Below, in pieces: positions 12,335 to 29,144 of a stretch of 64,000 bases of DNA (position 1 is the stretch's first letter; every line of letters starts with the position of its first letter). A program made the translations under genes and the position numbers. The DNA comes from Pseudosulfitobacter sp. DSM 107133 (lineage in GTDB: Bacteria > Pseudomonadota > Alphaproteobacteria > Rhodobacterales > Rhodobacteraceae): positions 507,402 through 571,401 of the forward strand of contig NZ_CP085155.1 in assembly GCF_022788695.1 (NCBI RefSeq). The letters are read 5' to 3'. The notes below the pieces were generated by a model. That model was not told the DNA's origin and searched no databases. It saw only the letters and a list, made by a program, of their open reading frames with translations.

Positions 12335-12907
12335 CTACCGCTTTGCGCCCTGCTCCACTGCTCCCGAAGGCTCTGCGGCATCCACATAGGCTGCCAGCCT
12401 GGCTTGGGTATGGGCAATGATCCCGTTTATGCGGGCAGCAGACAGCCCATAGCGCCGTGCGATGTCCTTTTGGCTTTCGACCCTCAAACGGTGCGCGCAT
12501 AAAATATCGGCCTCGCGCGCAGGCAGCGCCACCATCCCACTGGCCAGCCGGACAAGGGCCTGACGGTCTTGCAATTGCCGTTCGGCCGAAGGCTGATCAC
12601 TCAGCAACTCATCATCCAGCTCAAGCGGCGTGACCCGCTCGCTGATCTCGCGGCGGCGATGGTCCAATGCCAGATTGCGCACGATCCGGCGCAAGAAACC
12701 GCGCGGGCTGGCGATATCTGCGCCAATGGCCTTGCTGCTCAGGCAGCGCATGGCCGCATCTTGGACCACGTCCTCGGCGCGATCGCGATTGCCGAGAATG
12801 CGCATCGCATCGCACAGCAGCATCTCGCGCTCGTCAATCAGGTGACGCAGCAATTTTTGCCGTGTCAAAGCACAGCCAGCGGGGGCAGGTTTGTGTGAGT
12901 TTGCCAT
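12335..12907 (-). CDS. FecI-like ECF sigma-70 factor
   Basis: 190 residues. Region 2 covers about residues 20-90 (MLCDAMRILGNRDRAEDVVQ, the DNA-melting and -10 reading part). Region 4 covers about 125-175 with the helix-turn-helix SQKDIARRYGLSAARINGII. I chose ATG 12907 (MANSHK); a GTG at 12940 in the same frame would add 11 residues. It borders the siderophore operon, where FecI-type sigma factors commonly switch on outer-membrane receptor and uptake genes. Neither a FecR-like anti-sigma gene nor an N-terminal signalling domain on the receptor at 26961 is present, so the activating signal is unclear; it may be controlled simply by iron-dependent transcription. Confidence 0.85.
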   Translation of the reverse strand: MANSHKPAPAGCALTRQKLLRHLIDEREMLLCDAMRILGNRDRAEDVVQDAAMRCLSSKAIGADIASPRGFLRRIVRNLALDHRRREISERVTPLELDDELLSDQPSAERQLQDRQALVRLASGMVALPAREADILCAHRLRVESQKDIARRYGLSAARINGIIAHTQARLAAYVDAAEPSGAVEQGAKR

Positions 12908-13057
12908 CTTTTTGCGCTTGAATAGGAAGGGGCACGACACGGTGTCTGCCTAGCGCGCAAGCTGAGTGGACTTGTGAAGTCTTTACGCCCAACCCGGACC
13001 CGCCACAACCCGCGAAGGTGTCGGTACGGGCAAATTTTCACCTAATACGTGTATATT

Positions 13058-13082
13058 CCGCCCCTGCCTCGCACAGGGGCGG
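13058..13082 (-). terminator. Hairpin at the end of the siderophore biosynthesis operon
   Basis: A 9-bp perfect stem CCGCCCCTG / CAGGGGCGG with a 7-nt loop starts 10 bp after the N-hydroxylase stop. The downstream side is AT-rich but not a T-run. Confidence 0.5.
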
Positions 13083-13091
13083 ATCAACACT

Positions 13092-14369
13092 TCACTCGGC
13101 TGCGATGGCAGACGCAGACCCGTGCAGATTCTCCAATTGTCGGGCAATCTCGTCCGAGCGCAGGGCCAGAACCGAAAGCAAAGTATCGCTTAGCCCGTGT
13201 GTCGGTTCACTAAACCCCTGAACAAAAATGCCCGGCTCAAAGGTTTCCTTCATTGGCAGGCGGTAATCGCGGTCCGGCTCTTGCGCGGTTTGCCAGGGGC
13301 TTAGCCCTGCCAAGACCGACTGGTCCAGCGCCCGCCGGTATCCTGTTCCCAGAACAACCAGGTCATAGGCTTCGACCCGCGGTCCGGACGGCCCCGACAA
13401 TCGCAGCCTGACCTGCGCACCCGCCTGTTGCGCCTCTTTCACCTGGGTTTCTGCCAGCAATCCCAGACGGTTATCGCCGCGCACATCCTGCGCATAAAGC
13501 GTTTCGTAGATATGTTCGATCAGATCCGCGTCGGTCACCGCATAGTTTGTCGCCGCAAGGCTGTGCAGGGTCTGGGCCCGCGTCTCTTCCGGCAAACCAT
13601 AAAACCGGTCTGTCTGTGCCGGATCAAAGATCTCGTTCACAAAGGGCGTGTCATCCGACGGTTTGAGCGCCCTGCCCCGCAGGATCAGATCAACGCGCGG
13701 CTGTTCGGGGCGGGCGGCAAGATCGGCAAACACTTCGGCGGCACTTTGACCCGCGCCGATTACAGCGATGCGCTGGCCCGGTTTCAGTTTCGGCGCAACT
13801 TGCGAAAGATAGCCGCTTGCGTGGATCACCCGACCGCAGCCTTTCAAGGGCGCGAAGGTTTCGGGCCAGTGCGGAATTCCGCCCGGTGCCAGCACGATAT
13901 TGCGCGCCAGATGCCGGGTCCGCCTGCCCTCCGCGCTTTGGCAGTGCACCGCCAGATGGGTCACCCTGTCGCCCGCTCGCACCGGTTCAAGGCCGGTGAC
14001 CCGGCTGTCGTATTGGCAATTGGAAAATTGCCCAGCGATCCAGCCCAGATAGTCGTTGAACTCTTCCCGGCTGGGGAAAAACGTCTTGCGGTTGATAAAG
14101 CGCGACAGACGCCCCTTGGCATGAAGGTAACTGAGAAACGAAAACCCGCTGCGCGGATTGCGCAGGGACACCAGATCTTTCAGGAAAGACACCTGCATGT
14201 CGGTGCCTGCCAGCATCATGTCGGGATGCCAGGCAAAGGCCGGCTTCGCCTCAAGAAACCCCGTGCGCAAGCGGCTGCCGCGTTCGTGCAAGGCCACCGC
14301 CAGCGCAAGGTTCGAGGGGCCAAAGCCGATGCCAAGCACATCCAGCGGTTGGGCGTTCTGATCGGTCAT
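13092..14369 (-). CDS. L-ornithine N5-/L-lysine N6-monooxygenase (siderophore hydroxylase)
   Basis: 425 residues, usual for the PvdA/IucD/SidA family. The FAD site is LGIGFGPSNLALAVAL at about residues 12-27, the NADPH site is IAVIGAGQSAAEVFADL at about 203-219, and the ATGY-type motif is VLGTGYRR near 342. The family also shows WHPDMMLAGTDMQVSFLKDL. It converts the side-chain amine of ornithine or lysine to a hydroxylamine, the first step to a hydroxamate siderophore. The adjacent acyltransferase (ATGA overlap) would acylate the product. Ornithine is the likelier substrate because the partner is an NRPS rather than an NIS synthetase, but the sequence does not prove it. Confidence 0.93.
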   Translation of the reverse strand: MTDQNAQPLDVLGIGFGPSNLALAVALHERGSRLRTGFLEAKPAFAWHPDMMLAGTDMQVSFLKDLVSLRNPRSGFSFLSYLHAKGRLSRFINRKTFFPSREEFNDYLGWIAGQFSNCQYDSRVTGLEPVRAGDRVTHLAVHCQSAEGRRTRHLARNIVLAPGGIPHWPETFAPLKGCGRVIHASGYLSQVAPKLKPGQRIAVIGAGQSAAEVFADLAARPEQPRVDLILRGRALKPSDDTPFVNEIFDPAQTDRFYGLPEETRAQTLHSLAATNYAVTDADLIEHIYETLYAQDVRGDNRLGLLAETQVKEAQQAGAQVRLRLSGPSGPRVEAYDLVVLGTGYRRALDQSVLAGLSPWQTAQEPDRDYRLPMKETFEPGIFVQGFSEPTHGLSDTLLSVLALRSDEIARQLENLHGSASAIAAE

Positions 14370-15409
14370 TGGTCTTCTCCTGTGCCAAGCATGTTTGTAA
14401 GCGACAGGGCCAGCGGCGTGCCCTGCCCCGTGTCGGGTCGTGCCCAGATGCGGGATTCGAAAAAATGCTGGCGTTCCAGCCGCACCAGCGTTGCGCGTTT
14501 GTGCGAAAAATCGAAATCGCGCAGATGGGCAAAGCCGCCGCGCCCCAGATTTTTAAGCTGTTTCAGATGGCTCGCCTTTGGTTCACCCATCAGCGCCTGC
14601 GTGCGCGGTTCTGCCAGAAACATATAGTGCATCAGCGACGGCATCCACGCGGTGACATAATCGGCGCCGCGCATGTCATCCTCTCCGATCAGCACATGCC
14701 AGCCGCGATCCCACGGGTCGGCGTCATAGACCCCGCCAATCCGGTTCTCGCGCGCCCAGTACAGTTCGAAATAGGCAAAATCGCGCCCGTCCAGACTGCC
14801 GATCACCGGCAGGATATGCGGGTCTGCGATCAGGCGTTGCAGGGTGTCGCGATGGGCCTCCAACGTGCCAGCCTCTTCAAAAAACGCGGCGACGCGCGGG
14901 TCGTTCTGCCAGCGGTGAAAGGTGGCCAGATCGTCCATATGTGCCGCGCGCAGTTCAATCTGCTGGCCCAGCCACGGAATGTGGCGGCGGTACAAGGGCC
15001 CGACAGGTTTGGGCGGGCGTACAGGGTGGCGCCCGTTGGGGCCGGTTTGCCACAGCGTTGGCCAGGGCGGCGTCGGATGCATGATCCAGCGCTCGGGCAC
15101 CTGCCAGAACGCCGCCGGCAGCACCCAATGCGCCGCACCGATGGGTGTTGCCACGCCCATCGTGGCCAGCTGTGGCAGCAAACCCGCCCATTGCGCGCCC
15201 TCCAGCCGGATGGCCACCTCACCGCCCTCTGCGCTGAGTGTTTCGAAAGCCGCCAACGCCTGCGCGATGGTCAGCTTCGGTGTCGCAGTCAGACCCAGCC
15301 TGCCATCGCCCGCATCGCTTAGGGGCAAGACAACATCCGCGCCAACCTGCACATGATCTCCGGTGCGCTGCGCCACGGGGCGATCTGCCAAAGGCATATC
15401 AAAAGCCAT
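14366..15409 (-). CDS. Siderophore N-hydroxy-amino-acid acyltransferase, IucB/RhbD/AlcB-like GNAT
   Basis: 347 residues. A variable N-terminal half precedes a C-terminal GNAT domain of the IucB type (about residues 170-330). Hallmarks are FHRWQNDPRVAAFFEEAG, FAYFELYWARENRIG, WHVLIGEDDMRG and the closing KRATLVRLERQHFFE. It transfers an acyl group from acyl-CoA (acetyl or a related short acyl) to the hydroxylated side-chain nitrogen made by the monooxygenase, creating the hydroxamate. Its 3' end overlaps the hydroxylase start by 4 bp, as expected for a substrate-channelling pair. The acyl donor cannot be told from sequence. Confidence 0.92.
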   Translation of the reverse strand: MAFDMPLADRPVAQRTGDHVQVGADVVLPLSDAGDGRLGLTATPKLTIAQALAAFETLSAEGGEVAIRLEGAQWAGLLPQLATMGVATPIGAAHWVLPAAFWQVPERWIMHPTPPWPTLWQTGPNGRHPVRPPKPVGPLYRRHIPWLGQQIELRAAHMDDLATFHRWQNDPRVAAFFEEAGTLEAHRDTLQRLIADPHILPVIGSLDGRDFAYFELYWARENRIGGVYDADPWDRGWHVLIGEDDMRGADYVTAWMPSLMHYMFLAEPRTQALMGEPKASHLKQLKNLGRGGFAHLRDFDFSHKRATLVRLERQHFFESRIWARPDTGQGTPLALSLTNMLGTGEDQ

Positions 15410-15411
15410 AA

Positions 15412-16323
15412 TCAGGTCCTTTCTTTGATCTGTGTTTCCGCAGCTTTGGGCTGCGTATCAGCAAGAGCAAAAGCCCAGCGAAGCGCGCGGTTCACCGCCA
15501 CCGGCAGCACCGACATATGCGTCTCGTCCGCGTAGATTTCGCACCGTGTGGTCACCCCGCGCGCTGACAGGGCAGCCGCCATGTCTTGCGCGGCGGCGAC
15601 GGTCCGGGTCTTGGCCTTTTCCGCCAGCCGCTCTGCCGCTTCGGGTCCGCTGGCCTGAAACGGTGCCAATGCGTCACCCTCCCACTCACCAGCCGACAAA
15701 TGCACCCGCAGGCGATGTTCGCCCACGTCAAAACGGTCGAGATGATCCAGCAAAAAGCTGTCTTCCCATGTGATCGCGGGGCTGGCGGCAATCCAGTTGG
15801 CAAAGGCATCGGGGCGGGTGAACATCAGCCACAGCGCAAACAGCCCGCCAAAGGAATGGCCAAACAGCGATTGCCGCGCCGGATCCAGCGCCACCTGACC
15901 AGTCAGAAAGCCCCGCACATCCTCCAGCAAAAACCGCGCCATTTCCGCGCCGCCGCCGGTCCTGACCTCGGGGCCATCCGGCACAAAAGGGGGATAGGTT
16001 TGCCCCGGCGGCGGTCCCAGATCCCAGCTGCGTCGGAAGGAATCGTAGGCCGCGTCGCTCGGATAACCCACCGCGATCAGCACGCCCCAGCCAAGGTTGG
16101 TGCCCCTGGGCCAGAACGCCTGTGCACGCATCACATCCACCGCCGTGCCAATCACCGCGTTGCCATCAAGCAGCCACAGCGCGGGCCATCCGGCTGCGGG
16201 GGCCTCGCCCGGCGGCACCCATAGAAATACGCGGCGGATATCGCCGGTCTGGCTGTCTTTCAAATCGAACCAGCGGGTGCCGCCATTGTCGGCCAGGCCC
16301 TGCGCCACAACATCCCGCATCAT
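15412..16323 (-). CDS. Fes/IroE-like alpha/beta-hydrolase esterase
   Basis: 303 residues of the 'putative esterase' alpha/beta-hydrolase family that includes enterobactin esterases. The nucleophile elbow is LFGHSFGGLFALW (serine near residue 166) and a C-terminal histidine lies in ADETHMSV. The start MMRDVV at 16323 overlaps the stop of the PLP-enzyme gene (ATGA); the frame extends upstream but with non-protein composition. It has no signal peptide, so it would act in the cytoplasm, hydrolysing ester bonds of imported ferric siderophore to release iron or trimming a biosynthetic product. Its presence suggests the siderophore contains an ester (for example a macrolactone) or another labile acyl link. 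Confidence 0.85.
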   Translation of the reverse strand: MMRDVVAQGLADNGGTRWFDLKDSQTGDIRRVFLWVPPGEAPAAGWPALWLLDGNAVIGTAVDVMRAQAFWPRGTNLGWGVLIAVGYPSDAAYDSFRRSWDLGPPPGQTYPPFVPDGPEVRTGGGAEMARFLLEDVRGFLTGQVALDPARQSLFGHSFGGLFALWLMFTRPDAFANWIAASPAITWEDSFLLDHLDRFDVGEHRLRVHLSAGEWEGDALAPFQASGPEAAERLAEKAKTRTVAAAQDMAAALSARGVTTRCEIYADETHMSVLPVAVNRALRWAFALADTQPKAAETQIKERT

Positions 16324-17486
16324 GCCGCCACCTCTTGTGCGGCGTGCAAGGCCGCGCGCAGATCGTCCATCAGCAGCTCCGCAGGTTCCAGCCCTGCCGC
16401 CAACCGGATGGTGCGCGGGCTGACGCCAAAGCGTTGAAACACATTCGCCGCCCCCGCAAGTGCGCAGGCCGCCTGACCCGGCACAATCAGGCTTTCGGGT
16501 CCGCCCCAGCTGACTCCGATCCGGATCGTGCGCAGCGCATCGCAAAAGCGGGCCACATCCACACCTGCCGCCAGATCAAAGGCAAACAACCCGCCAAATC
16601 CGCACAGCCCCTCGGGACGCGTGGCCAGCAATCCCGGATGATGCAGGGCTGTGACCTGCGGATGCGCCGCCAGCCCCTGCGCCAGCGTTAGCCCCGTCTG
16701 CATATGGCGCGCCATCCGCATATCCAGCGTGCGCATGCCACGCAGCACCAGAAACGCATCCATCGGCGACATGCGCCCGCCGAACAGGTGGGTTGCCTCG
16801 TGGTCAATGGTCTGGATCATCTGGCGCGATCCCGTGACCAGCCCGCCCAGCGTGTCGCTGTGGCCCGACAGGTATTTCGACGCCGCATGCACCACCAGGT
16901 CGACGGCCAGCTCATGCGGGCGCTGGTACAGCGGTGTGGCCCAGCTGTTGTCGATCACCGAGATTACCCCCAGACGCTGCGCCTCGGTCGCAATGGCACG
17001 CAGATCTTGCAGACGAAAGGTCCATGAGGTCGGGCTTTCCAGATAGACCAGCCGCGCACCCGCCAGCGCATCAACCATCGCCTGCGTGTCGGTGCCATCG
17101 ACATAGGTGGTTTCAACCCCGAACCGCGCCAATACCGTTTCGAACAGGCGGAAAGCGTCGGAATACAGATGCTCGACCGCGACAATGCGGTCACCGGCCT
17201 GTACAAACGGCAGCACCGCGCCGCAAATCGCCGCCATCCCCGACGAAAACCCGCGCGCCGCCTCCGCGCCTTCCAGCCGCGCAATCAGGTCTTCCAGCTC
17301 GCAAACTGTCGGGTTGTCGCCGCGCGAATAGATGAACCTGTCTGAACGGCCGGCAAAGACATCTTCGATCTGGGCATAGCTGTCGAACAGGAACGAACTG
17401 CTTTGAAAGATCGGCGTGGCGCTGGCGTCATGTGGCACGGGGCGCGATGGCGAAATCAGATCGGCTGTGGGTGGTGTTCGGGTCAT
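16320..17486 (-). CDS. Cystathionine beta-lyase/gamma-synthase family PLP enzyme
   Basis: 388 residues, full length for the MetC/MetB family. Motifs are YSRGDNPTVCELE (phosphate and cofactor contacts), EHLYSDAF (stacking tyrosine), VISVIDNSWATPLYQRP, and HAASKYLSGHSDTLGG with the Schiff-base lysine near residue 202. Start at ATG 17486 (MTRTPPTAD) overlaps the MATE stop by 4 bp; an upstream in-frame extension is not credible protein. By family it makes or breaks C-S bonds in cystathionine or substituted homoserine. Its role inside a hydroxamate-siderophore operon is not obvious: it could supply a sulfur- or homoserine-derived building block, modify the siderophore, or have been recruited for another gamma-substitution reaction. 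Confidence 0.9.
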   Translation of the reverse strand: MTRTPPTADLISPSRPVPHDASATPIFQSSSFLFDSYAQIEDVFAGRSDRFIYSRGDNPTVCELEDLIARLEGAEAARGFSSGMAAICGAVLPFVQAGDRIVAVEHLYSDAFRLFETVLARFGVETTYVDGTDTQAMVDALAGARLVYLESPTSWTFRLQDLRAIATEAQRLGVISVIDNSWATPLYQRPHELAVDLVVHAASKYLSGHSDTLGGLVTGSRQMIQTIDHEATHLFGGRMSPMDAFLVLRGMRTLDMRMARHMQTGLTLAQGLAAHPQVTALHHPGLLATRPEGLCGFGGLFAFDLAAGVDVARFCDALRTIRIGVSWGGPESLIVPGQAACALAGAANVFQRFGVSPRTIRLAAGLEPAELLMDDLRAALHAAQEVAA

Positions 17487-18808
17487 ACAGAGGCTCCGGT
17501 GGTTGAAAGGGGAAACAGGGCGGCGCGGATCGGGACCAGCGCCAACAGCGCAGCCAGCCAGGCCGCAACAAGAACGGCCATGGCAATGCCAACAGGGCCG
17601 AACAGCGGCACCATCAGCGCCATCGCCGGCCACAGCAGCCAGCCCATCGGCGCAAGGCCAAGAACGGTCGCAAGACGCGGCTGCACGGTGGCTTGCAGGG
17701 TGATCTGCGCACACAGGCGCAGCGCAATCGCGGGCAGGGAAAGGGCAAGGTATGACAGCATCGCAGCGGCCTGTGCCACGATGGCAGGATCAATCACAAA
17801 CAGTCGCACCAGCGGGCGCGCGCCCATACTGAACAGTATGGACAGCACAACAGTGGTTGCCCCGCAAAGGTACAAAACCCGGCGCAACGTGGCGGTAAAC
17901 CGCGCGGCATTGGCGCTACCATGCGCGTGCGACAGGATCGGCTGCACCCCAATGGCAAACCCCTCAAGCGGCAGCATCACGACAAAAACCAGACGCAGGG
18001 CAATCCCCAGCGCGGCCAGATCATCCGCCCCGCCAACGGCGGTGGCGATGCGCAGCAGGGCCATCAGGCTCAGCGTGGTCACCGCGACAGCCGCCGCTTC
18101 GGGCAGCCCGACGCGCAGCACCGGCGCCAACAGGCGCAGCGGGCCAAATGTCGGACGGCGGCGCGGGGCGCAAAAATGCCATGCCCAGACACTCAGCGTG
18201 ACAGATTGCGCGCACAGCGTCGCCCATGCCGCCCCCGGCAGCCCAAGGTTCAGCCCAAAGATAAACACCGGATCAAGAAGGATGTTCAGACCAAAACACA
18301 GGCCCAGTGTTTTCAGGCTAAAGGCTGCATTGCCGCGCCCGATGGCCAGAAAATCGCAAAGGATTTGCAAGATGGCGCAGCCGATGGTCAGGGATTGTAT
18401 CGCCAGATAGGGACGCGCGGTTGCCAGCAATTCACCCTGTGCGCCCAGCAGGTGCAACAGCCCCCCGCCAAAGGCCCACAGCCCGCCAACAGCGCCCACA
18501 GCCAGCACCAGCGCCGCCGCCATCGACACACCCGCCACCGCGCGTGCCTGATCCGGCTGACCCGCGCCCAGCGATCTGGCCGTGGCACTGGCCGCACCAA
18601 TGCCCAGCCCGATCCCCGCCGCCGCGACCAATCCCGCAAGCGGCGCCAGCAACACAAGTGCGGCCAGCGCATCGCCCCCCAGCCGCCCGACAAAGGCCGC
18701 ATCAACCGCCTGATGCAACGCGTTCAGCGACAGCCCCGCCATCGCGGGCAGGCCCAGGCGCCACATCAGGCGGGGCAGGTTCGGATCAGACAGATCGCTG
18801 TCGGCCAT
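17483..18808 (-). CDS. MATE-family efflux transporter, probable siderophore exporter
   Basis: 441 residues with about twelve hydrophobic helices arranged as two six-helix halves. The first half holds GLSLNALHQAVDAAFVGRLGG, the second holds GLPEAAAVAVTTLSLMALLR. Start ATG 18808 (MADSDLSDPN) has AAGGAG at ideal spacing; the frame continues upstream across the intergenic inverted repeat, which is unlikely to be coding. As the first gene of the biosynthetic operon and divergent from the NRPS genes, it is best explained as the inner-membrane exporter of the finished siderophore, driven by H+ or Na+. General drug efflux is the alternative. Confidence 0.9.
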   Translation of the reverse strand: MADSDLSDPNLPRLMWRLGLPAMAGLSLNALHQAVDAAFVGRLGGDALAALVLLAPLAGLVAAAGIGLGIGAASATARSLGAGQPDQARAVAGVSMAAALVLAVGAVGGLWAFGGGLLHLLGAQGELLATARPYLAIQSLTIGCAILQILCDFLAIGRGNAAFSLKTLGLCFGLNILLDPVFIFGLNLGLPGAAWATLCAQSVTLSVWAWHFCAPRRRPTFGPLRLLAPVLRVGLPEAAAVAVTTLSLMALLRIATAVGGADDLAALGIALRLVFVVMLPLEGFAIGVQPILSHAHGSANAARFTATLRRVLYLCGATTVVLSILFSMGARPLVRLFVIDPAIVAQAAAMLSYLALSLPAIALRLCAQITLQATVQPRLATVLGLAPMGWLLWPAMALMVPLFGPVGIAMAVLVAAWLAALLALVPIRAALFPLSTTGASV

Positions 18809-18848
18809 ATGTTTCTCCTTGTCCTGGTCACAGGACGCGGCGGCCTGC

Positions 18849-18896
18849 GGAAAATTCACCCTTTGCAGAAAATTTTTTTGGACCAGTGAATTTTCC
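18849..18896. promoter_or_regulatory. Divergent siderophore promoter with 11-bp inverted repeat
   Basis: GGAAAATTCAC (18849-18859) and GTGAATTTTCC (18886-18896) are perfect inverted copies 26 bp apart, in the 133-bp gap between the MATE operon and the MbtH-NRPS operon. An A/T-rich stretch (18868-18879) lies between them. Two outward-facing copies of one motif suit a common regulator controlling both operons, plausibly iron-responsive. The motif is not a clear Fur, RirA or Irr box by eye. Confidence 0.55.
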
Positions 18897-18941
18897 CAAC
18901 TCCGAAACGTCAGCAGGGAAAGAGCTGAAAGGAAAACCCAG

Positions 18942-19145
18942 ATGACCCTTCCCAACGAAACTCAAATCCTGTGGCGCGTGCTGCGCAATTGCGAAGGGCG
19001 CTATTCGATGACGCGCGCCACACACCCTATCCCCGCAGGCTGGACCCCTGTCGGCGACGCCGCTTTGCGTACCGAATGTCTGGAACGTATCGGCACATTG
19101 TGGACCGATATGCGCCCCCTGAGCGTGCAGGAGGCATTGGCATGA
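18942..19145 (+). CDS. MbtH-like protein (NRPS adenylation-domain partner)
   Basis: 67 residues. Family features are the NCEGRYS segment, IPAGWTPVGDAAL and the C-terminal WTDMRPLSV. The normally tryptophan-containing SLWP position reads SMTR here. MbtH proteins bind and activate or stabilise adenylation domains. ATG 18942 follows AAAGGA, and its stop overlaps the NRPS start (ATGA), so the two are made together. Confidence 0.92.
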   Translation: MTLPNETQILWRVLRNCEGRYSMTRATHPIPAGWTPVGDAALRTECLERIGTLWTDMRPLSVQEALA

Positions 19146-22100
19146 GCAAGGATTTCATCACCCCCACGGCCCAACCGCTGACCCCGCTTGAGCGGCGCAT
19201 CTATGCCCACGACCATGTGGGAGAGCTGGCGCCCTTTGCCTATGAGACGTTGATATTGGGCTTTGACCACCGCTTTGCCCGCGCGGGTCTGGTAACTGCC
19301 ATCAATGATGTTCTGGCGCAGCATCCGGCGTTCACAGCTGCCTTCGTGACCCATGCAGGCGGCGCGGTTGAACGGCACGACACGGGCCAGACGGGGCTGG
19401 TGGTGCATCAGGCTGGTGATCTTGATCGCGCCCGCGCCCATGCCGCAACCCACGCGCCCGATCTGGCTGGCCACCCCGCCTGCGCCGATCTGTGGCCCGA
19501 TGGCAGCGCCGGGCATATCCTGACCCTGGTGCTGCACCCTGTTCTGGGGGATGACGCGACATTTGCAAGCATCGAGGCGGCGTTGTGGGGGGCCTTGGCT
19601 CTGCGCCCCGCGCCAGATGTAACGTCGGCCCCCGCCGCGGACAATCCGCCCCTGAACGCCCGCACCCAATGGCGCGAGCTGATGAACAGCCACCAGATCG
19701 CGCGCCTGCCGCATCGCTATGTGGCCCCCGAGCAGGGACTGCCAACCGTCAAACGCATTACCCGCCAGATCACGATACCGGAACAGGTCGGATCGCTTGT
19801 TGCCCCCACCGACATAGCAGCAGCGCTTGGCATCGTTCTGCGCCGCTACGGCGCGCAGGATGCGTTGCGTTTTGCCGTGGCGCTGCCACCACAGGCCGCA
19901 GAACGGCGCAGCACCGATCTGCGCCCCCTGTGCCTGTCCCCAGACCTGACCGCGCCCTTTGGCGACACCGTGGCCCTGACCGCACGCGCGTTACATGCCG
20001 CACCGCCCGTGCCGTCAGAAACCCTGATCCAAGATCAGCTGGCCCATGCCGATGCCGATCCGCACCCGCTGGGCGCAATCGCACTGTACCTGCGCGCAAA
20101 CCGCGCCCTGCCAGCAGGGGTTTGCCACCATCACCGCCCGATGCCCCCCAGCGCCGAAGAACTGGTGCTGACTGCCCAAAGCACGCCGCAAGGCATCGAG
20201 CTGCACGCCGATGCCGACGCCGCCCTGTTCGAACCGGCCCTGATCGAACGGTTTCTGCGGCACCTGCAACGGGTGCTGCACGCGGGCCTGCACCAGCCCG
20301 ACCTGCCGGTCGGGCACATTCCGCTGCTGGATGACGCTGAACTGGCCACCCTGTCGGCCCCCTATCCCGATGACACACCGGTTGATCCAAGGGCCACGCA
20401 TGAAATCATCGCCGCCCATGCGCTGACCACACCCGACAAGATTGCCATTATCAGCGGGGCCGACCGTCTGACCCACGCCACGCTGGACGCGCGCGCCAAT
20501 GCGTTGGCGCACCGGCTGTGCGCCGCCGGTGTCGGGGCGGAAACGCCCGTGGCCATCCTGATCGAGCGCGGCGCTGATGCAATCGTGGCGATCCTTGCCG
20601 TGCTCAAGGCGGGTGGCGCCTATATCCCTGTCGAACCCGACCACCCCAGCAGCCGCAACCATCATATCCTGACCGATGCGGGTGTTGCCGTGGTTCTGAC
20701 CCGCAGCCACTTCCGCGACCGGCTGCCCGATGCGCTTGCGGCCCGGATCATCTGTCTGGACGATCTGGACGACGCACCGCGCCCGGATGCGCCCGAAGTC
20801 ACCATCCACCCCGACCAGCTGGCCTATGTCATGTATACCTCCGGCTCTACCGGCAAACCCAAGGGCGTGGCGGTGGAACATGGCCCCCTGTCGCACCACA
20901 ACCAGACCACCGCGCGCGTCTATGAGATGAGCGCCGAAAGCCGCGAGCTGCCGTTCCTGCCGTTTTCCTCCGACGGTGGCCACGAACGCTGGATGGTGCC
21001 GCTGATGATGGGCGGCTCGGTTGTGGTGCCCGACGGGCCGCTGTGGACGCCCGAGCAAACCCTGGGGGCGATGCGCGAACACGGCTGCAACAATGCCTCG
21101 ATCCCCACGACCTATCTGCAACAGCTGGCCGAATGGGCCGAAGACACCGGAACCGCCCCGCCGATGCGGCTGTATTCCTTTGGCGGCGAAGGGCTGGCGC
21201 AGTCCACCTTCGACCTGCTCAGCCGCGCCCTGAACGCGCAGACCCTGATTAACGGCTATGGCCCGACCGAAACCATCATGACCCCGATGGTCTGGAAAGT
21301 GGCCGCAGGCACGCGGTTTCAGGGCACCTATGCGCCGCTGGGCCGCGCGGTGGGCGACAGGCGGGTCTATGTGCTGGACGAAGACATGATGCCCTGCCCG
21401 CAAGGGGTGGTGGGCGAGATCTATCTGGGCGGCACCGGCGTTGCGCGCGGTTATGTCGGGCAGCCGCAGGTCACCGCCGACCGTTTCATTCCAGACCCCT
21501 TCGGGCCAGCGCTCGACGGCACATCGGGCGCGCGGCTGTACCGCACCGGCGATCAGGGACGCTGGCGCGAGGATGGCACGGTCGAATTCGTGGGTCGCGT
21601 CGATCTGCAAATCAAGATCAACGGCTATCGCATCGAACCCGGCGAAATCGAGGCCGCACTGCTGGGCGAACCCGACGTGACCGAGGCGCTGGTGCTGCTG
21701 CGCGAGGATGGCGGGGCCAAACGGCTGATCGGCTATGTCACCGGCCCCGCGCCGGGGGCCGGTGACGCCCTGCGCCGCGCATTGGAAAGCAAGCTGCCCA
21801 AACACATGCTGCCCGAGGCGGTGGTGGTGCTGGACAAGATGCCGACCAACCCCAACGCCAAACTGGATCGCGCCGCCCTGCCCCTGCCCGAGGCGCGCAG
21901 CCGACAGACACAGGGCGTTGCGCCCGCCTCGACCGCGGAACAGCAGGTGCTGACGCTGTGGCGCGATCTTCTGACCCTGCCCGACCTTGGCGTGACCGAT
22001 GATTTCTTTGCCATGGGCGGCTCGTCTCTGCTGGCGCTGAAAGCCATCGCAGGAATGCGCAAACTGTGGCCCGAGGTGCCGCTGACGGTGGCCGATTTCT

Positions 22101-22984: not shown

Positions 22985-22990
22985 CACTTT

Positions 22991-23018
22991 GGTCTGGCGG
23001 GGCAACCCCTGCCAGACC
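22991..23018. terminator. Bidirectional terminator between NRPS and ABC ATPase genes
   Basis: GGTCTGGC-GGGG / CCCC-T-GCCAGACC forms a 12-bp stem with one bulged base and a CAA loop. It lies between two convergent stops (22984 and 23024) only 39 bp apart. Confidence 0.7.
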
Positions 23019-23023
23019 ACACC

Positions 23024-23806
23024 CTATTCGCGCGGAAAGACCACCGGTTTGCCAAAGACAGGATCGCGGGCCACATCGGCCTGCAAATCATACAGCGCCG
23101 CGACCGTCTGGGGCGTAATCGCCTGCTCTGCCGGGCCTGCGCAGATCAACCGCCCGTCGCGCAGCCCCAGCACATGATCGCAGAACCGCCCCGCAAGGGT
23201 CAGCTCGTGCAATACCATGACAATGCTGCGCTGCCGTTCATCCGCAAGCTGGCGCAGCAGCCGCAACAGCAACAGTTGATGCTGCAAGTCCAGAAAGGCG
23301 GTGGGTTCGTCCAGCAATATCACCGGCGTGTCCTGTGCCAGCGCCAAAGCCAGCCAGACCCGCTGCCGCTGCCCGCCCGACAGCGCGCTCAGGCGGGTTG
23401 TGCGCAGGTCGGACAGACCCGTCGCGGCCAGCGCGCTGTCGATGGCCTTATGGTCCGCTCCTGACAGGGGCCGAAATGCCTTGCGCCAGGGCGTGCGCCC
23501 CTTGGCGACCAGCCCGCCAACGCTCATATCCGGCACCAGCGGCGGGTTTTGTGGCAGATAGGCCATGCGTTGCGCACGTTCGGCCGCAGCAAGGCCTGCC
23601 AGAGGTGCGCCCTGAAACACAATCCGCCCTGCATCGGGCTGTTGCACCCCGGCAAGGCAACGCAGCAAGGTGGACTTCCCGCAGCCGTTCGGCCCGACAA
23701 TACCGGTCAGCCCACCGCGGGGCAAAACCCCCGAAAAGCCGTCATAAATCTGGTGGCCTCCCAGACGCAGCGACAGGTTTTCAATGTTAAAAAGAGGATC
23801 AGTCAT
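23024..23806 (-). CDS. Ferric siderophore ABC transporter ATP-binding protein (FecE/FhuC type)
   Basis: 260 residues with one nucleotide-binding domain. Walker A is GPNGCGKST near residue 38, the signature is [17 protein letters not shown] near 140, and Walker B is VILLDEPTAFLD near 160. The LDEPTAFLDLQHQ form is typical of iron-siderophore, haem and B12 importers. It is the last gene of a three-gene importer operon, starting where the FecD-type permease ends (1-nt overlap). Confidence 0.94.
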   Translation of the reverse strand: MTDPLFNIENLSLRLGGHQIYDGFSGVLPRGGLTGIVGPNGCGKSTLLRCLAGVQQPDAGRIVFQGAPLAGLAAAERAQRMAYLPQNPPLVPDMSVGGLVAKGRTPWRKAFRPLSGADHKAIDSALAATGLSDLRTTRLSALSGGQRQRVWLALALAQDTPVILLDEPTAFLDLQHQLLLLRLLRQLADERQRSIVMVLHELTLAGRFCDHVLGLRDGRLICAGPAEQAITPQTVAALYDLQADVARDPVFGKPVVFPRE

Positions 23807-24747
23807 CAGCGGGTCTCCTGCCGGTCACGCCACAGAAAGAAAATCAGATAGGGCGCACCGATCACCCCCATGACCAAGCCCGTGGGAAACACCGCTACGG
23901 GCGCGATCAGACGTGCCATCAGATCAGCCGCCACCAGCAAACAGGCACCGGTCAGCGCGGCGGGCCATATGGCCGGCGCTTCCGCCCCGCTGACCACGCG
24001 CGCCAGTGGTGCGGCGACAAAGGCCACGAACCCGATGGGCCCCACCGCCAAAGTGCTGGCCGCCGTCAGCGCGGTGACAAGGCCCAGCACCAGAACCCGC
24101 ATCCGTGACAGATCAACCCCAAGCGACGCCATCACGTCATCACCCAGCCACAGCAATCCCAGCCGGTGCGCGCGCAGGGCAACCAGCGCCCCGCCTGCCA
24201 GCAACACCAGCCAGACCCAGCCCGCCGTTGCCAGATCGGCACGCGCCAGCGACCCCGAAAGCCAGATCATCGCGCGGGCGGCCTTGGCATCCGGTGCCAG
24301 CACCAGAAGAACCGTTGTGGCCGCCGCCGCCGTGGCCCCGATCCCGATGCCAAAAAGCACAAAGGCCAGCGCCCCGCGCCCCTGTGCCAACAGCGCCACG
24401 CACAGCATCGCAATCCCCGCCCCACAGGCCGCCCCTGCCAGCAAAGGCAGGTCCAGCAACAGCGCGATGGCAAAGCCCAGCCCCGCCCCCTGCGTCAGCC
24501 CGATGATATCCGGCGTGGCCAGCGGGTTGCGCGTCAGCCCCTGCATCAGCGCGCCCGCCATTCCCAGCGCCATACCGGCCCCGACAGCAATCAGCACACG
24601 CGGCAGGCGCAGCCCGTAGATCAGAAAATCCTGGGGGTTCAACAGCCCCTGCACCAGCGCCACGGGGCCAAGCCAATTGCGCCCACCGGCCAGTGCCAGC
24701 CAGACCAGTACCGACAGCGTCACAGGCAGAACCGCCGACCGTCTCAT
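23806..24747 (-). CDS. FecCD-family ferric siderophore permease
   Basis: 313 residues, about nine to ten transmembrane helices. Family signatures are LRLPRVLIAVGAGMALGMAG near residue 47, GLTRNPLATPDIIGLTQGAG, and the C-terminal GPIGFVAFVAAPLARVV, where the cytoplasmic coupling helix lies. It forms a heterodimeric channel with the upstream permease, whose stop overlaps this start by 4 bp. Confidence 0.94.
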   Translation of the reverse strand: MRRSAVLPVTLSVLVWLALAGGRNWLGPVALVQGLLNPQDFLIYGLRLPRVLIAVGAGMALGMAGALMQGLTRNPLATPDIIGLTQGAGLGFAIALLLDLPLLAGAACGAGIAMLCVALLAQGRGALAFVLFGIGIGATAAAATTVLLVLAPDAKAARAMIWLSGSLARADLATAGWVWLVLLAGGALVALRAHRLGLLWLGDDVMASLGVDLSRMRVLVLGLVTALTAASTLAVGPIGFVAFVAAPLARVVSGAEAPAIWPAALTGACLLVAADLMARLIAPVAVFPTGLVMGVIGAPYLIFFLWRDRQETR

Positions 24748-25733
24748 GCCCGCGCCCGCCCGCTGCGCGGCAGAAGCCGTGTCAGCACCACAACCAGCCC
24801 GACGCCCCCGAACATGGCCACGATCAACCCGGCATCAATCTCGCCCGGGCGCACGATCACCCGCCCTGCCAGATCGCTGGCCATCAACGCCGCCGCCCCC
24901 AGCGGAACACAATAGCCATAGGCCCGCCGCAACTCTGGCCCCGCCAGACCGCGCGCGACAAAGGGCACCAGCAGCCCCAGAAAGGCAATCGGCCCGACAA
25001 TCGCCACCGATGCCCCCGACAACACAGTGACCAGCGCAAGCGTCAGCGAGACGGTCACACGCGGATCGCGGCCCAGACTGTGACTTTGATCCGCGCCCAG
25101 TGTCAGCAGCGACAGGCGGTGGCACAAAAAGACCCCTGCGATCAAACTCAGGGCGATGACCAGCAGCGGGGTATCTTCCCCCCGTGACACAGGCGGCATC
25201 GCACCCGAAATCCAGTGCAGATAGCGCGCCTGCGACTGCGCATCGGTCAGGATCAGCATCATTGCCAGCGACAGGCACAGGGCCTCGATGGCAAGCCCCG
25301 CCAGGGGCAGGCGCAGCGCAATGCCTTCGCCGCCCAGCCCGGCGTCACCGCCCGCCAGCAGCCACAGCGCCAGCCCCGCCAGACCGGCCCCGGCTATGGC
25401 CGAGACCATCACCAGCCCCGCACCGGCCGACGGCACGAATTGCGCCGTTGCCACGGCCATCAGCGCCGCCCCGGCATTGATGCCCGTTATGCCCGGATCG
25501 GCCAGCGGATTGCCTGTCAGGCTTTGCAGCATCAGCCCCGACACCGCCAGCGCCGCACCCACCGCCATGGCACAGAGGGCGCGAAATCCGCGCCCCGACA
25601 GCAATCCTGCATCGCCGTGCCACAGCGCCTCGGCCGACATCTGCGCCGTGCCGAACCGCAGGGCGCAAAGCAGCACCAACGCAAAAAGGCTCCATAAGAG
25701 CAGATTAATATACAGGGGGCGCAGCGGGGCCAT
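24744..25733 (-). CDS. FecCD-family ferric siderophore permease (first subunit)
   Basis: 329 residues with the same fold. Motifs are RALCAMAVGAALAVSGLMLQ near residue 50, SLTGNPLADPGITGINAGAA, and GPIAFLGLLVPFVARGLAG near 250. It is the first gene of the minus-strand importer operon, and the substrate-binding protein is encoded divergently 174 bp away, so the complete importer is split across one shared promoter region. Confidence 0.94.
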   Translation of the reverse strand: MAPLRPLYINLLLWSLFALVLLCALRFGTAQMSAEALWHGDAGLLSGRGFRALCAMAVGAALAVSGLMLQSLTGNPLADPGITGINAGAALMAVATAQFVPSAGAGLVMVSAIAGAGLAGLALWLLAGGDAGLGGEGIALRLPLAGLAIEALCLSLAMMLILTDAQSQARYLHWISGAMPPVSRGEDTPLLVIALSLIAGVFLCHRLSLLTLGADQSHSLGRDPRVTVSLTLALVTVLSGASVAIVGPIAFLGLLVPFVARGLAGPELRRAYGYCVPLGAAALMASDLAGRVIVRPGEIDAGLIVAMFGGVGLVVVLTRLLPRSGRARA

Positions 25734-25907
25734 GGCAATCCATCAACATCAGGGATGTGTTGGCGGGCACTGGGCTGGCTGCGCCCCAGATAGCGCCGAA
25801 GCCCCTGCCCCCGCAACCCCCGCCGATGGCTTGACAGCGCGGGCGCGCCTATGGAATCTCCGCGCACCCAGCAGACGCCAGGTTTTCCCCCACCCAAGGA
25901 GAGTTTG

Positions 25908-26849
25908 ATGCGCGCTGCCCTGTTGTTTTGCCTTTTGCTGATCTCGGTGCCTGCCCTTGCCCAGCCGGTCGAGATTTCCCACCGTTTCGGCACCACCCGC
26001 ATTGATGCACCACCCCGGCGGATCGTTTCGGTTGGCTATCACGAGCAGGATTTTCTCTATGCACTGGGCCTTGCACCCGTGGGGGTACACGAATGGTTTG
26101 GCGCCCGCCCCTTTGCCACCTGGGTCTGGGCAGATGCCGCGCGCAAGGCTGCGGGCGCAGAACCACAGGTGCAGCGCGGGTTCGAGATTGATCTGGAATG
26201 GGTCTGGCAATTGCAACCCGACCTGATCGTGGCCAGCTTTGCGCCGATGGACGGGGCCACATATGAACAACTGTCGCGTATCGCCCCCGTGGTTGGCCCC
26301 CCTACGGGCTACCCCGACTGGGGTGCGCCCTGGCAAGAAGAACTGCGCCTGATCGCCCGCGCCACGGGCCGACAGGACCGCGCCGAAGCGGTCATTGCCG
26401 ATGTTGACGCCGTGCTGGCCGACACCCGCGCCCAATACCCGGCCTTTGACGGGGCCAGCGCCGCAGTGGTCCATGTCGCGGGCACCAAGCTGGTTGGATA
26501 CGGCCCTGCCGACGGGGCCAACCGCTTTATGGCAGCACTCGGGTTTGACATCCCCAAGGACTTTGAAACGCTGGCCAGTGCGGCTGGCAATTTCTCGGTC
26601 AGCCTGGAGCGGATCGACCTGTTTGATCGTGATCTTGCCCTGTGGCTGGGCGACACAGCGGGGCGCGAACTGATCGAGGCACTGCCCGCCTATCAGGCCA
26701 GCGCCCTTGCGCAAGAAGCTCGCTCGGTCTGGGCAGACGAAGACGAAACCGGCGCAATGAGCTTTCAAACACCGCTATCGATCCCTTGGGCGGCACAGCG
26801 GCTTGCCCCGAAATTTCAAAGCGCCTTGCAGGGTGCAAAAGCGGATTGA
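25908..26849 (+). CDS. Iron-siderophore ABC transporter periplasmic binding protein
   Basis: 313 residues. The signal peptide MRAALLFCLLLISVPALAQP is followed by an FhuD/FepB-type body: RFGTTRIDAPPRRIVSVGYHEQDFLYALG near the N-terminus and LQPDLIVASFAPM near residue 105. ATG 25908 follows an AAGGAGAG ribosome site; the open frame reaches further upstream without one. No lipobox cysteine is seen, so it should be soluble in the periplasm. It delivers the ferric siderophore to the FecCD-type channel encoded divergently, and the TonB-dependent receptor follows 111 bp downstream. Confidence 0.92.
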   Translation: MRAALLFCLLLISVPALAQPVEISHRFGTTRIDAPPRRIVSVGYHEQDFLYALGLAPVGVHEWFGARPFATWVWADAARKAAGAEPQVQRGFEIDLEWVWQLQPDLIVASFAPMDGATYEQLSRIAPVVGPPTGYPDWGAPWQEELRLIARATGRQDRAEAVIADVDAVLADTRAQYPAFDGASAAVVHVAGTKLVGYGPADGANRFMAALGFDIPKDFETLASAAGNFSVSLERIDLFDRDLALWLGDTAGRELIEALPAYQASALAQEARSVWADEDETGAMSFQTPLSIPWAAQRLAPKFQSALQGAKAD

Positions 26850-26960
26850 CACCCGCCCGCAGAACCGTAAGTTGCGCCCACCCAGGTCCGACCCAGGCGA
26901 GTGCTGATCTCTTCATCAGCATACCCCGCATGACACATGCGCCGCTTGACAGGACCAGAG

Positions 26961-29144
26961 ATGACAGTTTTCCCCGCCCCCCGTTTCCCCCGCAAATCCC
27001 TGACCGGCATTCTGGCAGGCTGCACCGCATTGTCCTGCGCGGCCCTGATGGTCCAGACCGCACAGGCCCAAACCGCACCGGCCCAGACCCCACAGGCGCA
27101 GGACAGTGCGCCGATGGAACTGCCCTCGATCCTGCTGCGCTATGAGCTGGACTATTCAGGCCGCGTTGAGGGCTATCTGGCGCCAGCCACCGAAACCGGG
27201 GTGAAATCCGGCGTGCCGCTCAGCGAAGTTCCGCAGTCGATTTCCGTTGTCACCTCGACCGAGCTTGAAACCCGCGCCCCCGACGAGGTGGAAGACGCGA
27301 TTGCCTATGTGCCGGGTATCAACGCATCGACCTGGGGCACCGATGACCGGTTTGACCAGTTTTCGATCCGTGGTTTCGATATGGGGTCAAGCGCGCTGTA
27401 CCGCGATGGCCTGCCGCAAAAAGTGCTGAGCTTTTCCGCCTTTTCCACCGATCCGTTCATGATCGACCGCGTCGATGTGCTGCGCGGCCCTGCCGGGGTT
27501 CTGTACGGATCGAACGACGCGGGCGGCATGGTGAACCTTGTGACCAAACGGCCGGTCTTTGACCGGCTGGCCGAAGGACGCCTGAGCTATGGCAACAACA
27601 ACACCGCCGAGGTTGGTTTCGACTGGTCCGACACCATCAGCGCCGACGGCACCATGGCGGCGCGGGTGACCGGCCTGCTGCGCGATGGCGAAACCGAGGT
27701 AGACAGTTCCGACAACGACCGGGCGTTTCTGGCGGGTGGCTTTACCTGGGCCCCAACGGAAAACACCACGCTGACCCTGCTGGGCCATGTTCAGCGCGAT
27801 GCCAAAACGCCGCTGATCTTCTCGCCAGTGGCAGGCGAAGATTTTGACGCCTCTTACGGGCCGCTGCCCGACGACTACGCCTATCGCCAATCGGATTACA
27901 ACCACTTCAAAACCACACAGGAATCGCTGGGATGGGCGCTGACCCATCGTTTCGGTGACGGTCTGACCTACAACCAGCGTGTCCGGTTCGCCCACCAGAC
28001 AACCGATTACGCGCATCTCGACTACAGCTATGCAGATGCAGCGGGCTTGAACTATTACGCCTTCCGCAATGACGAAGACGCACGCACCGTTGGCTTTGAC
28101 AACAACATCGAATGGGAAACCCAGTTGTTTGGCGCCGAGAACAGTATGATCGCGGGGCTGGATTACCAATACAGCCGCGTCGATGTCACACAGTATTACG
28201 ATGGCACCATTTACACACTGCCCTACAGCAACCCCAATTTTGACTTCACGGCGGCCGATCCGGCGCTGTCCTCGCACGACCGCACGACCTATCAGGAAAC
28301 CGGCGTCTATGTGCAGGACCACCTGAAGTTTTCCAACGGCACTGCGGTCACGGCAGGGCTGCGCTATAGCTGGTTCGAGAATGACGCCACCGACTTGCTG
28401 GCGGGCACGACCAGCAGCCAAAGCGACAGTGCCGCGACCGGCATGATCGGTGTGACCCATGAATTCGCCAACGGGCTGACACCCTATATCGGCTATTCCG
28501 AAGGGTTCATTCAGAACGTCGGCACCACCATAACCGGCCAAACGCTAAACCCGTCCAAAAGCCGCCAATGGGAGGCAGGTCTGCGCTATCAGCCGACCAA
28601 TGCCCTGATGTTCAGCGGCGCGATCTATGACCTGCGCAAGACGAATGTAAAAGATTACGATCTCTCCGATCCGACATTCTCAAGCTTTACACAGGTGGGA
28701 GAAGTCCGTTCGCGCGGCTTTGAATTCGAGGCGCGCGGCCGGTTGGCAGCCAACCTTCAGGGCATTCTAAGCTATGGCTATCTCGACTCTGAAATCACCA
28801 GATCTTCGGATGCTTCAAAGCTGGGACACGCAAATGCGATGGCCCCGATGCACCAGCTTTCGCTGTGGCTGGACTATGACGCATCGGCCATTGTGCAGGG
28901 GCTGACCATCGGCGCAGGTATCCGTTACACATCTGAATCCTACTCGACACAGGACAACCTGCGCATAACCCCCAGCCACACCACCGCCGATATGGCCATG
29001 ACCTATGAGGCGCGCAACTTTGATGTGAATCTGAACGTCAGCAACCTGTTCGACCGCGATTACTACGGGGTCTGCTACGACGGCTACGGCTGCGCAAAAG
29101 GCGAAGGCCGCGTCATCAAGGTGTCGCTCAGCCGCCAGTTCTAG
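26961..29144 (+). CDS. TonB-dependent ferric siderophore receptor
   Basis: 727 residues. A long signal peptide ends near QTAQAQ (about residue 37). The plug domain follows: SEVPQSISVVTSTELE, DRFDQFSIRGFDM and VDVLRGPAGVLYGSNDAGGMVNLVTKRP (given here only in part). A 22-strand barrel follows and ends in the expected terminal phenylalanine (SLSRQF). The hydroxamate/catechol receptor type (FhuA/FoxA/FhuE group) fits the plug motifs. There is no N-terminal STN signalling domain between signal and plug, so it should not itself feed the FecI-like sigma factor at 12335. ATG 26961 (MTVFPAPRF) is preceded by AGGA; an in-frame ATG at 26937 is less likely. Confidence 0.94.
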   Translation: MTVFPAPRFPRKSLTGILAGCTALSCAALMVQTAQAQTAPAQTPQAQDSAPMELPSILLRYELDYSGRVEGYLAPATETGVKSGVPLSEVPQSISVVTSTELETRAPDEVEDAIAYVPGINASTWGTDDRFDQFSIRGFDMGSSALYRDGLPQKVLSFSAFSTDPFMIDRVDVLRGPAGVLYGSNDAGGMVNLVTKRPVFDRLAEGRLSYGNNNTAEVGFDWSDTISADGTMAARVTGLLRDGETEVDSSDNDRAFLAGGFTWAPTENTTLTLLGHVQRDAKTPLIFSPVAGEDFDASYGPLPDDYAYRQSDYNHFKTTQESLGWALTHRFGDGLTYNQRVRFAHQTTDYAHLDYSYADAAGLNYYAFRNDEDARTVGFDNNIEWETQLFGAENSMIAGLDYQYSRVDVTQYYDGTIYTLPYSNPNFDFTAADPALSSHDRTTYQETGVYVQDHLKFSNGTAVTAGLRYSWFENDATDLLAGTTSSQSDSAATGMIGVTHEFANGLTPYIGYSEGFIQNVGTTITGQTLNPSKSRQWEAGLRYQPTNALMFSGAIYDLRKTNVKDYDLSDPTFSSFTQVGEVRSRGFEFEARGRLAANLQGILSYGYLDSEITRSSDASKLGHANAMAPMHQLSLWLDYDASAIVQGLTIGAGIRYTSESYSTQDNLRITPSHTTADMAMTYEARNFDVNLNVSNLFDRDYYGVCYDGYGCAKGEGRVIKVSLSRQF

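Follow-up and report, generated by a model that had tools for sequence, protein, structure and literature searches.

The window analysed here, a 64,000-nucleotide stretch of contig NZ_CP085155.1 (positions 507,402 to 571,401) of Pseudosulfitobacter sp. DSM 107133, carries at positions 12335–29144 a complete hydroxamate siderophore cluster with one nonribosomal peptide synthetase (NRPS). The cluster is of the vicibactin type and very probably works like the vicibactin (vbs) system; we consider it probable that it makes an unacetylated cyclic trimer by the steps laid out below. The predicted core of the product is a cyclic tri-ester of N5-hydroxy-N5-(3-hydroxybutyryl)-D-ornithine. The initial annotation of this DNA had considered the product not predictable from known clusters; a homologue of the epimerase VbsL and a common adenylation (A) domain pocket point to the vicibactin core, and the product therefore appears largely predictable. 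The host, a marine bacterium allied to Sulfitobacter, has a 5.2 Mb genome and belongs to the genus of Pseudosulfitobacter pseudonitzschiae. The vicibactin pathway would reach beyond the rhizobia of soil into marine bacteria, of which many were cultured with diatoms; in the marine version the hydroxylase is exchanged and the capping step is missing, and the prediction supplies a definite structure to look for.

Gene content and relationship to vicibactin clusters

Every gene named in the initial annotation was recovered by profile search and reading of the open reading frames (ORFs) (Table 1). That inventory had overlooked a pyridoxal phosphate (PLP) enzyme of the Cys/Met family, located between the exporter and esterase genes, and had given no interpretation of the extracytoplasmic function (ECF) sigma factor encoded at its left end. 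Identity to the pRL12 vbs proteins of Rhizobium johnstonii 3841 is 52.5% for the PLP enzyme (over 377 residues, against VbsL), 50% for the NRPS, 47% for the GNAT acyltransferase, 43% for the MbtH-like protein and 38% for the MATE exporter; for the remaining genes it is 32% (hydroxylase), 31% (receptor) and 30% (sigma factor). The record of R. johnstonii gives products only; the vbs names were assigned to its genes from their position.

The window and R. johnstonii clusters have in common the NRPS domain order and A pocket, a VbsL-like PLP enzyme, a VbsA-like GNAT protein, the MATE and MbtH-like proteins, an ECF sigma factor and a TonB-dependent receptor. VbsL is described as an acyl-hydroxyornithine epimerase, a marker characteristic of vicibactin biosynthesis, in PMC12971057. 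The window cluster differs in having a PvdA-type hydroxylase where Rhizobium has the VbsO type, in gene order, in a putative promoter motif, and in that its importer and esterase genes form part of the cluster; VbsC, VbsP and FhuF were not found in it, nor was FhuF found in the genome. The cluster is called vicibactin-type because two features of vicibactin proper, the VbsO-type hydroxylase and the acetyltransferase VbsC, are missing from it, while the VbsS-type NRPS (by domain order and pocket), the VbsL-type PLP enzyme and the VbsA-type GNAT protein are present. Vicibactin-like clusters of Phyllobacterium resemble that of the window in containing the esterase and importer and in lacking VbsC; unlike it, they have a VbsO-type hydroxylase, and of two Phyllobacterium genomes searched, one (G462) has a VbsC homologue elsewhere. 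In Phyllobacterium sophorae (L058) the GNAT match lies at the locus edge, nearly 10 kb from the MbtH gene, and VbsL and MATE were not found within the 10-kb flank; an insertion may split this cluster.

In an even draw of Rhodobacterales the NRPS was found at E ≤ 1e-200 in 12 of 390 genomes, this one counted. An annotated plasmid of P. pseudonitzschiae H46 carries the identical gene set in identical order, and the NRPS of P. pseudonitzschiae is about 90% identical to that of the window. The comparison below covers 64 loci, duplicates included (24 from Rhodobacterales, 33 rhizobial and seven without VbsL), taken from the even draw, named loci, plasmid records and genus members. Matches to the epimerase, esterase, GNAT protein, window-type hydroxylase and sigma factor are present in all 24 Rhodobacterales loci, and a MATE gene in 23, the exception being L044. 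In L136 (G379) the GNAT and PLP matches are each split over two frames, and this copy may be damaged. The Pseudosulfitobacter cluster is plasmid-borne; the genus gives 44 of the 255 matched plasmid records, and among the records listed the plasmids are of about 211 or about 250 kb.

The closest printed mention found is in PMC12376047, where one NRPS-like cluster 'similar to' vicibactin is given for P. pseudonitzschiae SW; as described there, that cluster includes a glutamine synthetase, and none was seen in the window cluster. EntE/EntF-like NRPS clusters are mentioned for two roseobacters, Citreicella SE45 and Oceanicola S124, in PMC4771312. A description of the variant itself was not found among the top-ranked results of the literature search, which is weak evidence of absence, subscription papers being mostly outside the search.

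Condensation and thioesterase domains of the NRPS

The condensation-type domain (C*) of the NRPS, followed by A, thiolation (T) and thioesterase (TE) domains, has the fold of a complete condensation domain. Its motif reads H-P-V-L-G-D, and the HHxxxDG motif with the catalytic second histidine is missing. In an alignment of 28 NRPS sequences, the first histidine and the aspartate are invariant (28 of 28), and the catalytic second histidine is replaced by proline in 26 sequences and by alanine in two. Over the 64 loci the motif is HP..D in 42, HA..D in 15 and HR..D in two, with no aligned motif in five. The degenerate motif is not peculiar to this cluster but family-wide: none of the 57 VbsS-type NRPSs has HHxxxDG. 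Identity to VbsS is very uneven along the protein: 22% in C*, 71% in the A core, 83% in the A4–A5 stretch, 42.5% in T and 65% in TE. The TE serine S1091 and a near-terminal histidine, H1256, are invariant in all 28 sequences.

Some relatives dispense with the condensation domain. The NRPSs of VbsL-less clusters in Chelatococcus (L078) and Methylobacterium (L080) have the order A-T-TE with an N-terminal MbtH match, which in L080 is below the Pfam cut-off, and no Condensation match was found in either by Pfam. None was found anywhere in four Methylobacterium genomes; the Chelatococcus genome has two, both in a separate 2036-aa frame. L091 was judged to lack the domain because its genome is without a PF00668 match; its NRPS frame extends upstream into unrelated sequence. 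The C domain is retained, with HR..D, in Microvirga L033 and Duganella L073.

The family-wide absence of HHxxxDG and the existence of relatives without the domain support the proposal, made in the initial annotation, that oligomerisation and cyclisation are the work of the TE and not of the C domain; the poor conservation of C* beside the A core and TE agrees with it, and a single iterative hydroxamate module is likewise supported. It is rather unlikely that C* is more than an idle remnant and keeps a function other than catalysis, for example as a scaffold for the A and T domains or as a gate on chain length. The invariant first histidine and aspartate and the retention of the whole fold would fit such a role; the identity of only 22% to the VbsS C* and the absence of the domain in Methylobacterium and Chelatococcus relatives speak against it, although the weight of these relatives is lessened by their lack of VbsL and their different pocket. 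Because nature offers both C*-A-T-TE and A-T-TE forms, the role of the inert VbsS condensation domain and the possibility of TE-only trimerisation and cyclisation can be tested directly. Chelatococcus and Methylobacterium clusters with hydroxylase, GNAT and MATE genes and an MbtH-A-T-TE NRPS, without VbsL (L078:9740-12607 and L080:9683-12646, also L081, L082 and L091), offer a natural test of TE-only assembly.

Matches of the TE in the PDB are weak; EntF is among them. In enterobactin synthesis by the EntF/Fes system, one module with a TE gives an ester-linked cyclic trimer from which iron is released by an esterase; EntF differs in its active C domain and catecholate product.

The A-domain pocket

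The pocket positions follow GrsA numbering and come from a motif alignment, not from a structure. All 57 NRPSs of VbsL-type clusters (56 loci with a VbsL match, plus L058 assigned by hand) have the pocket DGES[Y/F]FGMT, with tyrosine in 55 and phenylalanine in two, and all seven VbsL-less NRPSs have DGEG[Y/C/L]FGIS. As a hypothesis, the pocket type may code for D- versus L-acyl-hydroxyornithine as the monomer. The correlation with VbsL is complete, but no stronger statement is made because few evolutionary events underlie it. The epimerase-linked difference gives a testable code for the two configurations.

Hydroxylase, acyltransferase and esterase

The best solved relatives of the window hydroxylase are PvdA (348 bits), MbtG (300) and SidA (272), and those of VbsO are 6xbb (229 bits), putrescine hydroxylase (202) and PvdA (130). 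In the hydroxylase tree, built like the GNAT tree from 40 of the 64 rows, a fully supported branch separates 16 rhizobial VbsO sequences from 19 of Rhodobacterales and five of VbsL-less clusters; support is 80 for the Rhodobacterales group and 46 for the VbsL-less group. Rhodobacterales hydroxylases are 26–37% identical to rhizobial ones (792 pairs) and 42–53% identical to those of VbsL-less clusters (168 pairs). The NRPS tree, which uses 59 of the 64 rows after removal of five near-duplicates, places Rhodobacterales beside rhizobial VbsS, so that at least two changes of hydroxylase type are needed on it; gain and loss cannot be told apart there. The branching order of L073, L033 and L078 is unsure because of their long branches.

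The best solved relative of the GNAT protein is SidF (7qf6) of the fusarinine pathway. PMC12144892 describes its acyltransferase scheme as consistent with the vicibactin model, where acylation of the monomer precedes loading. The esterase has the kinship of siderophore ester hydrolases and the catalytic serine motif GHSFG. Its best solved relative is 6guo (E 2.6e-30), followed by BES, PfeE, triacetylfusarinine C (TAFC) esterase and IroE, fungal siderophore esterases being among the closest. This kinship suggests that the product contains ester bonds. The closest solved relatives of both proteins thus come from the fungal fusarinine C/TAFC system (SidA, SidF, EstB), which likely follows the same logic of an acylated hydroxyornithine, an ester-linked ring and release by an esterase; the acyl group and the NRPS are taken to differ from those of the window. 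Hydrolysis by EstB is mentioned in PMC8781417.

The esterase is not a difference from rhizobia, because 10 of 12 whole rhizobial genomes have a homologue (46–51% identity); the matches are only 29–31% in G455, and there are none in G458. In seven of these ten genomes the coordinates suggest that the homologue lies at, or just past, the end of the compared stretch. The idea that VbsC and the esterase exclude each other was considered and rejected on the same count, nor did a pair test on the tree reach significance (four pairs on starred branches, five on all, median p 0.5).

Proposed pathway and alternative readings

In the proposed pathway, the PvdA-type enzyme would hydroxylate L-ornithine at N5 and the VbsA-like GNAT protein would acylate the hydroxyornithine, most likely with (R)-3-hydroxybutyryl-CoA as the predicted acyl donor. 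The VbsL-like PLP enzyme would then invert the alpha carbon, and the A domain would load the finished monomer onto the T domain. With the condensation domain presumably catalytically dead, the TE would take the monomer as an acyl-enzyme, join three units through esters of the ornithine carboxylate with the hydroxyl of hydroxybutyrate, and close the ring. The three alpha-amines are probably free because VbsC is missing, which would make the product a fusarinine C-like ring, the bacterial counterpart of fusarinine C. Export of the siderophore may fall to the MATE protein. The TonB-dependent receptor and the FecCD system would return its ferric complex to the cell, and cleavage of the ester bonds by the esterase would free the iron.

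Several points weigh against this reading. Trimer size cannot be read from sequence; the acyl specificity of the GNAT protein is a prediction; the hydroxylase is unlike VbsO, so its substrate is a prediction; another acetyltransferase could replace VbsC; and the functions of VbsS and VbsC are those reportedly described by Heemstra in 2009. An ordinary, fully N-acetylated vicibactin, made with an unrelated acetyltransferase encoded elsewhere in the genome, is unlikely. Every other vicibactin function has a counterpart here, and one of the 17 Rhodobacterales carriers searched whole, G241, does have VbsC (59%), which shows that the gene can sit in a Rhodobacterales cluster. The other 16 are without it, twelve giving no match and four only matches of 20–24 bits; the whole genome of the host (G000) has no VbsC homologue at E 0.001, although controls in the same search were positive at 56–94% identity. 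Among five genomes from outside Rhodobacterales, VbsC was found in G448 (94%), G450 (56%) and G462 (58%), with a 23-bit match in G463 and none in G464. A different hydroxyacyl group, ring size or a linear oligomer is similarly improbable. Such a product would be in line with a GNAT protein and hydroxylase diverged from VbsA and VbsO, the GNAT protein being only 47% identical to VbsA and the hydroxylase belonging to another subfamily, but the A pocket (83% in A4–A5) and the TE (65%) are strongly conserved.

Participation of a second NRPS, which the initial annotation had set beforehand as the finding that would overturn the single-module scheme, appears very improbable. Only one further Condensation-domain match occurs in the genome, in an orphan C-A-T-TE gene on contig C9 (L024:9925-14121) whose condensation domain scores well. 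Its counterpart in G003 is 73% identical, with one in-frame TGA. In G004, however, the gene is broken (an internal stretch is missing and there is an in-frame TGA), and in G002 the best match is only 35%, yet the siderophore cluster is kept in G002, G003 and G004 (L025–L027), the first and last being further members of the host's genus. Since G002 has no close match and the G004 copy is broken while both keep the cluster, the C9 gene is unlikely to be needed. It also adjoins IS110-type and IS30-like insertion sequence transposases, and no siderophore gene was found among the ten ORFs scanned around it.

The preferred unacetylated trimer can be joined with the proposals above into one picture: marine Rhodobacterales making a D-configured, fusarinine C-like ring with free amines, ring building by the TE only, a pocket that tracks monomer configuration, and a condensation domain in decay, with outright loss in one branch. 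All of this together is put forward tentatively, at somewhat below even chances.

Putative promoters and feature coordinates

In the 133-bp gap between the MATE and MbtH genes, GGTGAATT-N15-CGTC occurs twice in divergent orientation, once exactly and once with one mismatch; the gap itself was aligned in seven Rhodobacterales clusters. Among the loci listed (38 of 159), at least one exact copy is present in 23 of the 24 Rhodobacterales clusters, G340 being the exception; the 33 rhizobial and the seven VbsL-less loci have no exact copy. The R. johnstonii region has no match at 0 or 1 mismatch. With up to two mismatches the window has 13 matches against 5.8 expected, and with up to one mismatch the genome has 46 against six for the reversed control. 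The motif by itself is not specific; its weight lies only in its conserved place. The simple reading is that the linked sigma factor recognises it as an ECF promoter and would probably drive both divergent operons. Two more exact matches lie at G000:C1:3480344-3480370 and G000:C2:380050-380076.

Table 1. Features of the siderophore cluster in the window (positions of the window; coding assignments are predictions)
Feature	Position	Strand	Basis
ECF sigma factor, RpoI-like	12335..12907	-	Sigma70_r2 and Sigma70_r4; ATG start; 30% to R. johnstonii RpoI
PvdA-type L-ornithine N5-monooxygenase	13092..14369	-	PF13434, E 7e-112; best solved relative PvdA (3s5w), 348 bits; 32% to VbsO
GNAT N5-hydroxyornithine acyltransferase, VbsA-like	14366..15409	-	PF13523; 47% to VbsA; best solved relative SidF (7qf6)
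Siderophore ester hydrolase	15412..16323	-	PF00756; solved kin are siderophore esterases; GHSFG at residue 155
PLP enzyme, VbsL-like acyl-hydroxyornithine epimerase	16320..17486	-	PF01053; 52.5% to VbsL; SKY motif at residue 203
MATE exporter, VbsD-like	17483..18808	-	PF01554; 38% to VbsD
Putative ECF promoter towards the MATE operon	18834..18860	-	GGTGAATT-N15-CGTC, exact
Putative ECF promoter towards mbtH-NRPS	18885..18911	+	GGTGAATT-N15-CGTC, one mismatch
MbtH-like protein	18942..19145	+	PF03621, 44 bits; 43% to VbsG
NRPS C*-A-T-TE, VbsS-like, 1280 aa	19142..22984	+	Pfam domains; 50% to VbsS over 1311 aligned positions
C* domain with the complete condensation fold, Pro replacing the catalytic His	19142..20353	+	Alignment and fold comparison
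Importer ATPase	23024..23806	-	PF00005
FecCD permease	23806..24747	-	PF01032
FecCD permease	24744..25733	-	PF01032
Periplasmic substrate-binding protein	25908..26849	+	Annotated homologue; 88% match in L029; start read
TonB-dependent siderophore receptor	26937..29144	+	PF00593 and PF07715; FhuA/FoxA-like NCBIfam matches below cut-off

Other biosynthetic genes in the genome

Two phosphopantetheinyl transferases (PPTases) are encoded elsewhere in the genome. A further biosynthetic region on contig C1 (L028:1522-15397) comprises a polyketide synthase (PKS) with a TE, then a single protein combining formyl-transferase, AMP-binding, luciferase-like monooxygenase and carrier domains, and then an Sfp-type PPTase. 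The A-domain protein beside the PKS has no condensation domain, and the Sfp-type PPTase may serve the siderophore cluster.

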